Shown: one piece after another, positions 3,757 through 16,268 of the stretch
How the letters are laid out: each line of letters begins with the position of its first letter
Numbering within the stretch: the first letter of the stretch is position 1
From: Candidatus Krumholzibacteriota bacterium
Lineage (GTDB): Bacteria > Krumholzibacteriota > Krumholzibacteriia > JAJRXK01
Direction of reading: 5' to 3'
DNA: 64,000 nucleotides
NCBI GenBank assembly: GCA_029262065.1
Contig: JAJDAC010000046.1
Location: 1-64,000, forward strand
Notes under the pieces: model-generated
Told to the model about the DNA's origin: nothing
The model's database searches: none
Seen by the model: only the letters and a program-made list of their open reading frames with translations
Translations under genes and position numbers: made by a program

Positions 3757-4056
3757 TCATGCTGCTTCGTGGTCTGTTGGCGTGAAGTGAATCTCCAGAC
3801 CAAGTGACTCGAGAAGCGTGGCCAAGCTCGAGAGTCTGGGGTTGCCCTTCTCAGACAGCATTCGGTAGAGGTTCTCACGGTTCAGGCCCGTCAAGTTCGC
3901 GGCTGCACCAACTCCACCGTGCGCTTCGACCACGTTGCGTAGGCCGAGAAGAAACACCTCCTCCGAATCCTCAAAGCACGCAGTCAGGTACTCCGCCGCC
4001 TCATCGATGTCCTGCAGTTGCTCGATGAGTTCTTCGTGATAGCTCCTACTTGGCAT
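3757..4056 (-). CDS. HigA-like antitoxin (XRE family addiction-module antidote)
   Basis: A 99-residue protein encoded against the direction of the array. Residues 43-90 form an XRE-type helix-turn-helix: VEAHGGVGAAANLTGLNREN followed by LYRMLSEKGNPRLSSLATLL. This is the pattern of the HigA/RelB-type probable addiction-module antidote proteins that follow a HigB/RelE toxin. Its ATG overlaps the end of the truncated toxin frame by 11 nt. It should bind the inverted repeat at 4241-4260 and repress its own promoter. The antitoxin looks intact although its toxin is not. Confidence 0.85.
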   Translation of the reverse strand: MPSRSYHEELIEQLQDIDEAAEYLTACFEDSEEVFLLGLRNVVEAHGGVGAAANLTGLNRENLYRMLSEKGNPRLSSLATLLESLGLEIHFTPTDHEAA

Positions 4057-6733: not shown

Positions 6734-7552
6734 GTGACTTTGACCAAGCCAGAGATCGACAGTTCGTTCACGACGGATGTAGCCAGGTTCTATGAGGCGA
6801 CTCTCGTCCCGTTGATTTTCCGGCCCTATGCGCGGGACCTGGCGGACCGAACCAAAGACCTCACACCGAGCGCGGTCCTGGAGGTTGCCTGTGGGACCGG
6901 AGTGGTGACTCGAGCCCTTGCCGAAAGTCTTCCTGACGACTGTGACATCGTTGCGACTGATCTGAATGACGCGATGGTGGCGCATGGTCAGCATGTCGGA
7001 ACGGCACGTTCGGTAACCTGGCGACAGGCAGACGTGATCGATCTTCCGTTTCCTGCGGACACCTTCGATGTCGTGGTGTGCCAGTTCTCGGTGATGTTCT
7101 TCCCCGACCGTGTGGCAGCATACCGCGAGATACGCCGCGTTCTTCGGCCCGGCGGTACGTTCCTGTTCAACGTCTGGAATAGCATTGAGCAGAACGAGTT
7201 CGCCGACGTGGTGACGAAGGCCGTGGGCACTCTCTATCCCGCCGACCCTCCAATCTTCCTGGCTCGGACACCTCACGGCCACGGCGCACCGGAGGAGATT
7301 GAGAGCGACCTGAAGGCGGCGGGTTTTGTGACGTGTGCTCTTGTCCAAAAGGAGGAGATCAGCGTGGCCGACGCCCCGGACGTCCCCGCCGTTGCGTATT
7401 GCCAAGGCACTCCTCTCCGCAATGAGATTCTGGCTCGAGATCCAGATGGACTCGAACGGGCCACCAGGGTTGCGACGGAAGCGCTGCGGTCGCGGTTCGG
7501 AGAAGGCGAGATCAAGGGTCGGATCAGTGGGGTGGTGGTGATCGCTAGCTAG
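6734..7552 (+). CDS. SAM-dependent class I methyltransferase
   Basis: A 272-residue methyltransferase. Motif I is VLEVACGTGVVTRAL (near residues 51-65), the acidic end of beta-2 is DIVATDLNDAMV, then ADVIDLPFPADTFDVVVCQF and the post-motif LRPGGTFLFNVWN. This is the Methyltransf_11/25 fold. Residues after 150 give the acceptor-binding region; the substrate cannot be inferred. The start is GTG 6734, with TTG 6740 as an alternative. The selenoprotein gene follows 118 bp downstream on the same strand; no functional link is evident. Confidence 0.88.
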   Translation: MTLTKPEIDSSFTTDVARFYEATLVPLIFRPYARDLADRTKDLTPSAVLEVACGTGVVTRALAESLPDDCDIVATDLNDAMVAHGQHVGTARSVTWRQADVIDLPFPADTFDVVVCQFSVMFFPDRVAAYREIRRVLRPGGTFLFNVWNSIEQNEFADVVTKAVGTLYPADPPIFLARTPHGHGAPEEIESDLKAAGFVTCALVQKEEISVADAPDVPAVAYCQGTPLRNEILARDPDGLERATRVATEALRSRFGEGEIKGRISGVVVIAS

Positions 7553-7670
7553 CAAGCGATTGCCGCTGCGCGCTTGTGTAGATGGCCGCGGCGTAGCAGA
7601 ATCGCGGGACACTATCCGGAGAGAAATACGACTTCTCACGATCGATGCACCCCGACATGGAGAGCGCGCG

Positions 7671-7922
7671 ATGGCTATCCGAATCGTCTACTGCGAGACC
7701 TGAGGTACGACCGCCAAAAAGGCAGCGAGTTTCGCTGCCCTCATCCGCAACACTCTGGGGAATCCCGTCGAGCTGGAAAAGGGGCGGCAAGGGCAATTCG
7801 ACATCGTCGTAGACGGCCAAACTGTCGTTTCCCGAAAGGGCGGACTGCTTGCCAAACTCTTGAATAGACCTTGGCCAAGCGAGGAGGACGTCGTAGCGGC
7901 TGTACGCGACGCGGTACAGTAG
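7671..7922 (+). CDS. SelW-like (Rdx family) selenoprotein with in-frame TGA as Sec
   Basis: Read with TGA 7701-7703 as selenocysteine, the frame from ATG 7671 to TAG 7920 gives 83 residues beginning MAIRIVYCETUGTTAKKAA. Cys8 and Sec11 form the CxxU redox motif of SelW/SelT/SelH (Rdx) proteins. The part after the TGA keeps family features: GQFDIVVDGQTVVSRKGG and a final PSEEDVVAAVRDAV helix. GGAGA lies 7 nt before the ATG. A bacterial-type SECIS hairpin follows the TGA. The product is a small cytoplasmic thioredoxin-fold protein, probably a thiol oxidoreductase. Standard gene calling would miss it, because the TGA leaves a 10-codon frame. Decoding needs selA, selB, selC and selD, which are not in this window. 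Confidence 0.88.
7701..7739 (+). promoter_or_regulatory. Bacterial SECIS element (UGA plus downstream hairpin)
   Basis: Seventeen bases after the TGA a perfect 7-bp stem, GGCAGCG (7721-7727) with CGCTGCC (7733-7739), encloses the loop AGTTT. The loop starts 24 nt after the TGA and has G as its second base. Known bSECIS elements have the apical loop about 16-37 nt from the UGA and a G among the first two loop bases. The hairpin lies inside the coding region, as in bacteria, and would bind SelB. Confidence 0.8.
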
Positions 7923-9806: not shown

Positions 9807-10604
9807 ATGCAGAAACTGCCAAGGTCCATATTCATTTCTCATGGTGGTGGCCCGTTGCCGTTGTTGGGAGACGAACGGCATCATGAAATGTTGGTCTGTC
9901 TGAAAGATCTTGCGGCCGCCATTCCTAGACCCGACGCGATAGTAGTGGTCAGCGCCCATTGGGAAGAAAAGCGCCCTACGATTACGGCGGCACGCAATCC
10001 ATCGCTGATCTATGACTACTCCGGATTCCCTGCGGAGTCCTATGAAATCAAATACCCGTGCGTGGGCGAGCCCGCTTTGGCAGATGAGATATTTCATCTG
10101 TTCACGGCAAGATACATCGATGCAGGATTAGATGAAGAAAGGGGTCTCGATCACGGCGCTTTCGTTCCGCTTAAGAACATGTATCCCGAGGCCGACAGTC
10201 CGTGTGTGCAGGTATCTCTGGTAGATACACTGGATCCGTCCACACACATTGAAGTTGGGCGGGCGCTCGGGAGCCTTCACAAGCGGAACGTGGTGGTTAT
10301 TGGGTCAGGTTTCTCTTTTCACAATGTGAGGGCGTTCTTCGCGCCTGATGGATCTGAGGGCGATCGGCTCAATGAGGCGTTTGAAGAGTGGTTGCAGGCC
10401 GCATGCAGCGGCAGCCATTATTCAGAAGAACAACGGTATGAATTGTTGGCCCGATGGAGCGACGCCCCAGGAGCTCGCTACTGTCACCCGAGAGAAGAAC
10501 ACCTTCTACCACTGCATGTGTGTTACGGGTTGGCGCGAAGCCCCTGCACCAAACGTATGGAACTCACCATCATGAACAAGAAGTCGAGCATGTATGTGTG
10601 GTGA
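9807..10604 (+). CDS. LigB-type extradiol ring-cleavage dioxygenase (YgiD-like)
   Basis: A 265-residue protein of the class III extradiol dioxygenase family (4,5-DOPA dioxygenase type). Metal and active-site histidines are visible in IFISHGGGPLPLL (near residue 12), VVVSAHWEEKRP (near 50), ERGLDHGAFVPLKNMYPEAD (near 119) and PREEHLLPLHVCYG (near 236). It would use Fe(II) or Zn and O2 to open catechol-type rings. The start ATG 9807 directly follows the trace of an attC core. The C-terminal 15 residues (SSMYVW end) differ from the family. Confidence 0.88.
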   Translation: MQKLPRSIFISHGGGPLPLLGDERHHEMLVCLKDLAAAIPRPDAIVVVSAHWEEKRPTITAARNPSLIYDYSGFPAESYEIKYPCVGEPALADEIFHLFTARYIDAGLDEERGLDHGAFVPLKNMYPEADSPCVQVSLVDTLDPSTHIEVGRALGSLHKRNVVVIGSGFSFHNVRAFFAPDGSEGDRLNEAFEEWLQAACSGSHYSEEQRYELLARWSDAPGARYCHPREEHLLPLHVCYGLARSPCTKRMELTIMNKKSSMYVW

Positions 10605-13571: not shown

Positions 13572-16268
13572 GTGACGGTTGAAGCTGGCCGGACCCTTCT
13601 GCACTACAAGATCGTTTCCAAGCTCGGAGAGGGGGGGATGGGCGTCGTTTGGCGCGCGGTCGACACCACGCTCGATCGCGAGGTGGCGATCAAGGTGCTG
13701 CCGGCGGCAATGGCCACCCAACCGGACCGGCTGGCGCGCTTCGAGCGCGAAGCCAAGCTGCTGGCCTCTCTGAATCATCCTAATATCGCGGGGATCCACG
13801 GCATCCACGAGGTCGACGGGACCTCATTCCTGGCCATGGAACTGGTCGAGGGCCAGGACCTGCAGCAGCGTCTGGCCGGGGGAGCGATGTCGCTTCGGCA
13901 GTCGCTGGAAGTGGCACTGCAGATCGCGCACGCCGTCGAGGCGGCGCACGAGTCCGGTGTGATCCACCGCGATCTCAAACCGGCCAACGTCAAACTGACC
14001 GACGAGCACGTGGTCAAGGTGCTGGACTTCGGTCTGGCCAAGGCGCTGTCAGATCCGTCGCAAGCAGGCACGAGTCCGTCGATGTCACCGACGTTGACGT
14101 CGGCGGGGACCATGGCGGGGATGGTTCTGGGTACTGCGGCCTACATGAGCCCCGAGCAGGCCAAGGCCAAGGACGTTGATCGCCGGGCCGACATCTGGTC
14201 CTTCGGGGTTGTGCTATTCGAGATGCTCAGCGGACGGCGACTGTTCCAAGGCGAAGGTGTATCCGAGACGCTGGCCGCCGTGATCATGAAGGAAGTCGAA
14301 TGGGGCTCGCTACCCGCGGATACGCCGCCGCGCATCCGGCGACTGCTCGAGCGTTGCCTCGAGCGTGACCCGAGATTGCGGCTGCGGGACATCGGTGACG
14401 CGCGCATCACCATCGAAGAAGTCCTGGAGGCACCAGACGATATTGCGGTTGGCGAGCCGACGGCGACGCGTCGCCCGGCGTGGGTTTCGATCGCTCCCTG
14501 GGTCGTTGCCGCGGCGGCGTTGGCGGCGCTCGGCTGGGGCTGGTCTGGCGGTGACAAGCAGCGCGCCCCATCGCCCGTGATGCGCTTTACCATGGCGCTG
14601 GCCGAGGATCAGCCGCTCGACACCTCGGCGCACCCGATGCTGGCCGTCTCGCCCGATGGCCGGCGTATCGCCTACCTCGGCAACCACAACGATGAGGACG
14701 TGATCTTCCTGCGCCTCACCCGCGAGCTCGAATCCGTACCGCTCCCGGGAACCGAGAACGCCGACGCGCCCTTCTTCTCGCCCGACGGCGAGTGGATCGG
14801 TTTCGGCGCCCACGGCAAGCTGAAAAAGGTCTCCGTGTTGGGCGGACCGCCGGCGACCCTGTGCGATGCTCCGGAGTTTCGAGGGGCAACCTGGGGAACC
14901 GACGGGACGATCGTGTTCACGGCGTTGCGCGAAGGTGGCCTGATGCGTGTGTCCGATGCCGGCGGCGATCCCGAACCGCTGACGCTTCTCGAAGATGAAG
15001 TGGACTCTGAGGGCGCTCGAACCCATCGCTGGCCGGACTACCTCCCGGGGGACCAAGCGGTGATCTTCACGTCCAACGTGCGTTCTTCGGACTTCTCGGA
15101 GGCCGAGATCACGGCCTATAGCTTCAAGGACAAGAGTGTGAAGACGGTGGTGAAAAATGGGACCTTCGGTAGGTTTGTGCCACCGGGCTTTCTGGTCTAC
15201 GCGCGGAACAACACACTGTTCGCCGCCCGTTTCGACCCACGGCGCCTGGAGATTGTCGGCCCTGCGGTTCCGGTGCTCGAGGGGGTCAATGGTCCGATCA
15301 GCTGGGGCAGCAAACACATGGCATTCTCGGACAGCGGAACGCTGGTCTATCTCCCCGGCGGCACCGACCTGGAGCTCAGAACGCTGGTGTGGATCGACCG
15401 GCAGGGCAATGAGCAGCCCGCGTCGTTGCACGAGCGAGGCTTCGAAAGATTCGACATTTCGCCCACGGGAACGCACGTCGCTGTCGGCATTACCAACACA
15501 GCGGGCGATCAGGAAGACATCTGGATCCTCGAGTTGGAACGGGACACGCTGACGCGGCTGACCTTCGACGAAGCAAAAGACTCGATTCCGATCTGGAGCC
15601 CTGACGGTGAGTGGGTCACCTTCGCCTCCGATCGTGACGTTGGCGTGGGCAACCTGTATCGCAAGCGTGCCAATGGAACCGGCGAGGTCGAGCGATTGAC
15701 GACGAGCGAGGCCCCCCATTGGCCGAACTCGTGGTCACCAGACGGAACGGTCCTGGCCTTCGGCGAATTCATCGCGGGCAACGCCGGGAACATGATGTTC
15801 TATCGCCCTGGCGCCGATCCCGAGATCGAAGTCTTTCTGGGAACTCCCTTCTGGGAGTGGGTCCCGCAGTTTTCCCCGGATGGACGCTTCGTCGTCTACA
15901 GTTCCAACGAGTCGGGGTTGTCCGAGGTCTACGTCCGGCCTTCCGACGGCAAGGGTGCACAGGTCAAGATTTCGACCAGCAGCGCCAGGGACGCCCAGTG
16001 GGCGGGAGCAGAGGAGCTGATCTACCGGTCGGCGGACGAGATCCTGAGCGTAGGTGTGTCCGCGGAGGGCGATGTCGTGAAGCCGGCGCTGCCGCAAAAG
16101 CTGTTCGACCTCCCAATGCCGCTTTGGAGCCTGAGGTTCCGTGTCTCGCCCGACGGGCAGCGGATTCTGGCGAGCAAGAATCTCGGGAACGCATCCGCCC
16201 GGCGCGATCCCGTCGTCGTGATCAACTGGATCGACGAGCTGGAGGCGAAGGTCCCGGCCGCGAGATGA
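13572..16268 (+). CDS. Ser/Thr protein kinase with TolB-like beta-propeller sensor
   Basis: An 898-residue receptor-type kinase. Glycine loop GEGGMG (residues 19-24), catalytic Lys41 in VAIKVL, HRDLKPANVK (Asp134), DFG at 152 and MSPEQAK show an active kinase. A membrane helix lies near residues 300-322 (WVSIAPWVVAAAALAALGWG). The outer part (330-890) has at least six SPDG-type blades such as SPDGEWIGFG, SPDGEWVTFASD and FSPDGRFVVYSSNESG, a TolB/WD40-like propeller. The architecture is frequent in Acidobacteria and FCB-related phyla. The start is GTG 13572. Ligand and targets are unknown; no phosphatase is adjacent. Confidence 0.92.
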   Translation: MTVEAGRTLLHYKIVSKLGEGGMGVVWRAVDTTLDREVAIKVLPAAMATQPDRLARFEREAKLLASLNHPNIAGIHGIHEVDGTSFLAMELVEGQDLQQRLAGGAMSLRQSLEVALQIAHAVEAAHESGVIHRDLKPANVKLTDEHVVKVLDFGLAKALSDPSQAGTSPSMSPTLTSAGTMAGMVLGTAAYMSPEQAKAKDVDRRADIWSFGVVLFEMLSGRRLFQGEGVSETLAAVIMKEVEWGSLPADTPPRIRRLLERCLERDPRLRLRDIGDARITIEEVLEAPDDIAVGEPTATRRPAWVSIAPWVVAAAALAALGWGWSGGDKQRAPSPVMRFTMALAEDQPLDTSAHPMLAVSPDGRRIAYLGNHNDEDVIFLRLTRELESVPLPGTENADAPFFSPDGEWIGFGAHGKLKKVSVLGGPPATLCDAPEFRGATWGTDGTIVFTALREGGLMRVSDAGGDPEPLTLLEDEVDSEGARTHRWPDYLPGDQAVIFTSNVRSSDFSEAEITAYSFKDKSVKTVVKNGTFGRFVPPGFLVYARNNTLFAARFDPRRLEIVGPAVPVLEGVNGPISWGSKHMAFSDSGTLVYLPGGTDLELRTLVWIDRQGNEQPASLHERGFERFDISPTGTHVAVGITNTAGDQEDIWILELERDTLTRLTFDEAKDSIPIWSPDGEWVTFASDRDVGVGNLYRKRANGTGEVERLTTSEAPHWPNSWSPDGTVLAFGEFIAGNAGNMMFYRPGADPEIEVFLGTPFWEWVPQFSPDGRFVVYSSNESGLSEVYVRPSDGKGAQVKISTSSARDAQWAGAEELIYRSADEILSVGVSAEGDVVKPALPQKLFDLPMPLWSLRFRVSPDGQRILASKNLGNASARRDPVVVINWIDELEAKVPAAR

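Follow-up and report, generated by a model that had tools for sequence, protein, structure and literature searches.

An Rdx-family gene carrying an in-frame TGA is confirmed at positions 7671 to 7922 of a 64,000-nucleotide stretch of DNA from a Candidatus Krumholzibacteriota bacterium (contig JAJDAC010000046.1), which as a whole is referred to here as the window. It is best explained as a small selenoprotein gene, and its sequence makes it very probable that the product is a thioredoxin-fold Rdx protein in which UGA 7701 is decoded as selenocysteine (Sec). The match to the Rdx family, the bias of substitutions by codon position, and the dN/dS ratio all argue against a chance reading frame. The features discussed below are the following, all on the plus strand.

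7659 to 7662, +: likely ribosome binding site GGAG, 8 nt 5' of the ATG
7671 to 7922, +: putative selenoprotein gene of the Rdx family (SelW-like), with 83 codons and a TAG stop
7692 to 7703, +: codons for C8, E9, T10, and U11, the CxxU redox motif, with C and U/TGA invariant across relatives
7701 to 7703, +: in-frame TGA, probably read as Sec; the TGA is conserved in relatives and the host has Sec machinery
7721 to 7739, +: bSECIS hairpin with an 8-bp stem, GGCAGCGA/UCGCUGCC, and the GUU loop at 7729 to 7731
7833 to 7874, +: codons 55 to 68 (RKGGLLAKLLNRPW), 7 to 8 residues longer than in canonical SelW according to alignments

Reading across the TGA

The initial annotation had proposed an 83-residue product with CETU at residues 8 to 11 and 72 codons 3' of the TGA, and its coordinates proved exact, with the ATG at 7671, the TGA at 7701–7703 in frame, and the TAG at 7920–7922. 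For the good ribosome binding site it claimed, there is likewise a likely candidate at the listed distance. With U denoting Sec, the product reads MAIRIVYCETUGTTAKKAASFAALIRNTLGNPVELEKGRQGQFDIVVDGQTVVSRKGGLLAKLLNRPWPSEEDVVAAVRDAVQ. As had been noted, standard stops leave only overlapping frames in the mechanical list of open reading frames (ORFs), e.g., 7574–7867 (+) and 7545–7820 (−). Both other frames of the plus strand are interrupted by stops in the window or its relative.

The closest relative (L009/L029, CALZKF010000024.1) originates from a metagenome-assembled genome (MAG) deposited as Acidobacteria. Its identity is 78%, and it shares the TGA. The differences between the two genes number 10, 9, and 41 at codon positions 1, 2, and 3, respectively. 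Over the 72 codons past the TGA, dN is 0.13 and dS is 1.21, and with a dN/dS of about 0.11 this part of the sequence evolves under purifying selection, in agreement with the conservation that had been claimed for it. Decay of a CxxC Rdx gene into a pseudogene, with its Cys codon mutated to TGA, would need one change from TGT or TGC, and the long form of the protein was not seen in the other genomes searched within the host's phylum. Such decay is nevertheless extremely improbable, as the 78%-identical relative retains the TGA under the constraint just described, three more distant members of the sub-lineage and canonical SelW genes have it as well, and an intact bSECIS hairpin follows it.

The host assembly comprises 59 contigs and is 95.6% complete. 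It contains a tRNA-Sec with the anticodon UCA (71.6 bits, above the Rfam cut-off) and matches to SelA (E 5e-116), SelB (E 1e-105, profile positions 2–577 of 581), and SelD (E 3e-100), so that all the genes for Sec decoding that the initial annotation had suggested looking for were found. The TGA might instead be read through because of leaky suppression or a general reassignment, with Trp, Cys, or some other residue incorporated, and the identity of the inserted residue is not evident from sequence alone. However, of 28 long ORFs in the mechanical list for the window, which are largely free of overlap, 11 end in TGA, and the codon thus looks like a normal stop here. Given also the dedicated tRNA-Sec, SelA, SelB, and SelD in the genome and the bSECIS-type hairpin 3' of the TGA, read-through of this kind is hardly credible. 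The interpretation as a SelW-like selenoprotein, with Sec presumably inserted at the TGA, is well supported by these sequence features. From established knowledge, SelB-GTP carrying Sec-tRNA would bind the hairpin at 7721–7739 downstream of the UGA, and Sec would be delivered by SelB at UGA 7701.

Two further TGA-containing genes were observed in the same genome. The host selD itself contains an in-frame TGA, close to the N-terminus within SAAGU (L020, G000:C48:88900-89832, − strand). A second Rdx gene, located on a different contig, is a canonical SelW with a TGA (VKVSIQYCGAUNYLPRA..., motif CGAU; L021:1498-1728, G000:C29:24990-25205), and the hairpin following its TGA is weak in a simple scan (−0.5 kcal/mol). 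Taken together, the Sec machinery, the TGA of SelD, and the second SelW suggest that several selenoproteins are very probably made by this host.

A hairpin 3' of the TGA

The published bSECIS model (PMC13188914) describes a loop of 3–9 nt located 16–37 nt 3' of the UGA, a stem of 4–16 bp, and an energy of at most −7.5, with a G within the first two loop positions that is often followed by G or U. The window hairpin agrees with the model on every point, having a 3-nt loop (G then U) at a distance of 25 nt, a stem of 8 bp, and an energy of −13.2 kcal/mol. When positions 7698–7745 were folded, none of 200 shuffled sequences did as well (z −2.9); for positions 7701–7750, 6 of 200 did. An Rfam search of the window gave no match.

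Three of the eight stem pairs join a third codon position to a third codon position, and codon choice can therefore keep or break the stem while leaving the protein unchanged. In 22 family members, whose hairpin sequences were aligned by protein motif, the stem is 94.9% paired. The covariation score of this set is 0.357, compared with 0.134 in shuffles, a test inflated by the kinship of the sequences, and no more than 0.155 in slid controls. Columns 6–18 show C-G, U-A, A-U, and G-C pairs plus one G-U and one U-G, while columns 9–15 are either G-C or C-G, with no mispair at either site. Both variable pairs join third positions and are thus largely free of protein constraint. The outer pair 3–21 is looser, being unpaired in 6 of the 22 members. 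A separate set of ten canonical SelW genes from the host's own phylum shows weaker covariation (0.214 versus 0.109). Three sequences without the A-A-x-x-A-A motif (L026, L033, and L042) were left out of the covariation set; they also have a hairpin of the required kind. Between the window and L009, the longest identical run is 23 nt (p 0.03, codon shuffling). As the hairpin is identical in this nearest relative, the covariation signal stems from the more distant members.

The same fold could be a by-product of the alanine codon repeats (GCN GCN .. GCN GCN) in KAASFAAL and no SECIS at all, because the four alanine codons pair through their first two positions at any codon choice, and several stem pairs are indeed invariant. 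Such an origin would not account for pairs 6–18 and 9–15, which have changed on both sides and are still paired in 7 and 8 of the 22 members, nor for the same behaviour of 6–18 in 3 of the 10 sequences of the canonical SelW set. Furthermore, none of the seven third positions in the hairpin differs between the window and L009, against 41 of 83 gene-wide, making the by-product very unlikely. The structure of the hairpin, here taken as a bSECIS, is selected independently of the protein.

Fold, redox motif and known counterparts

For the Pfam search, C was substituted for U in the product. The Rdx membership claimed at the outset is borne out by Pfam Rdx (PF10262), which matches residues 3–80 of 83 with 35.7 bits against a cut-off of 22.6 (E 1e-8). 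Scores for two NCBIfam models are 29.5 bits for TIGR02174 (CXXU_selWTH), below the curated cut-off of 34.2, and 35.7 bits for NF041051 (SelTWH_Campy, an equivalog), below the cut-off of 88. The similarity to TIGR02174 runs end to end, and the product thus appears divergent from this model rather than unrelated. As the SelT/W/H matches are nearly full-length while falling below the cut-offs, the models would leave a called frame unlabelled.

The AlphaFold2 model, computed from an input alignment of two sequences only, reaches a pLDDT of 91.3 and a pTM of 0.82. Its elements follow a beta-alpha-beta-beta-beta-alpha order, with the CxxU located between strand 3–7 and helix 12–29. The top structure matches are the bacterial SelW-related proteins 3dex, 2obk, 2fa8, 2oka, 2p0g, and 2ojl, with Z scores of 10.9–11.4, a rmsd of 1.6–2.1 Å over 72–74 residues, and 26–34% identity in the structural alignments. 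These six structures are presumably Cys forms. MIEN1 (Z 7.9), mouse SelW (Z 7.0), and thioredoxins (Z up to 6.8) follow at lower scores. By sequence search, MIEN1 (C17orf37, Rdx12) is the sole relative with a solved structure (E 1.5e-4); the extra residues of the window protein are missing from MIEN1 and show up as an alignment gap of 7. The model thus predicts the thioredoxin-like fold of known SelW proteins, and similarity of the part past the TGA to Rdx proteins is seen in the profile and structure matches alike. Cys8 and Sec11 would form a redox pair at the turn from the first strand to the first helix. They most likely act as a thiol/selenol oxidoreductase through selenenylsulfide/dithiol exchange.

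UGA decoding, bSECIS elements, and SelW-like redox proteins are already established. Bacterial SelW-like selenoproteins, known since 2005–2006, were described in PMC1088965 and PMC1794560, and the family is entered as SELENOW-like/Rdx/CxxU in PMC9312934. With the bacterial SelW-like proteins (PF10262), the window protein shares its size, the predicted thioredoxin-like fold, the N-terminal CxxU past the first strand, and the downstream bSECIS. The SelW of Campylobacter jejuni (CJnc60) resembles the window gene in being a small unannotated ORF with an in-frame UGA, and its full-length translation is supported by Ribo-seq and proteomics (PMC11955535), providing a precedent for the translation of such a hidden gene. 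The window gene shows that a selenoprotein gene missed by standard gene calling can be recovered by unaided reading of the raw sequence.

The long form, its relatives and its surroundings

The window protein has 7–8 residues more ahead of the last helix than canonical SelW. The lengthened segment, codons 55–68, links this helix to the last strand, and the AlphaFold2 model predicts a short helix (59–63) inside it. The long form is known from five genomes (window, L029, L030, L031, and L032), with the TGA present in all of them. L030, L031, and L032, found among 41 genomes of the MAG's class, are 34–37% identical and share the TGA and the longer segment before the helix, with CPTU as their motif. 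Rdx members fetched from outside the sub-lineage are 28–41% identical to the window protein and carry NY after the redox motif, where the window sub-lineage has GTT or ATT after Sec. A genome-scan match, L010, was rejected as false, since its translation reads as a ClpX-like ATPase.

A profile search of 80 genomes of the host's own phylum gave mainly canonical SelW selenoproteins, and no second long form was present among the proteins read out from these genomes. The closest relative thus lies outside the own-phylum set, which suggests horizontal transfer, and the window gene was probably passed between lineages. No relative of it was found in the plasmids, phages, and viral contigs searched. 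In a phylogenetic tree, the five long forms are set apart from the rest by a branch whose support is 68/90, present in 65% of bootstrap trees, and the tree carries a long-branch warning for this grouping; support for the long-loop branch having arisen once is weak. Tentatively, the five may represent an unnamed, Sec-only Rdx branch with a conserved loop, a CxTU motif, and a substrate of its own, scattered across lineages and in two cases present beside a canonical SelW, although this proposal is somewhat less likely to be right than wrong. The novelty of the long-loop branch is modest. It adds a divergent branch to SelW, whose window member would not be named by the curated NCBI models tested.

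Other Rdx groups with a TGA were encountered during the searches. L045 and L047 (G101 and G100) belong to a separate Rdx-like group with the motif CEQU. The C-terminal half of these proteins is different (WLGTRLVARRGPLRWPW), and they may constitute a further branch. L026, L033, L042, and L044 represent another Rdx branch with a TGA, which shows the pattern SGLHAVRVAAKLRRE or similar, occurs in several genomes, and is distinct from canonical SelW.

A methyltransferase gene upstream in the window (6734–7552) was considered as a conserved partner, because a methyltransferase also precedes the gene in L009 and L032, and rejected. Its counterpart at L009 is dissimilar, the one at L032 is similar in the common core only (35% over 102 residues), and no methyltransferase was seen adjoining the gene in L030 and L031. 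Among the loci compared (window, L009, L030, L031, and L032), no conserved neighbour gene was established. At L032:1737-2402 (−), the stop of the methyltransferase gene and the start of the long-form Rdx gene overlap, which points to co-translation at that locus. Elsewhere in the window, positions 3757–4056 (−) encode a probable addiction module antidote protein (PF21716), positions 9807–10604 (+) a LigB-type aromatic ring-opening dioxygenase (PF02900), and positions 13572–16268 (+) a fusion of a protein kinase with WD40-like (PD40) repeats.
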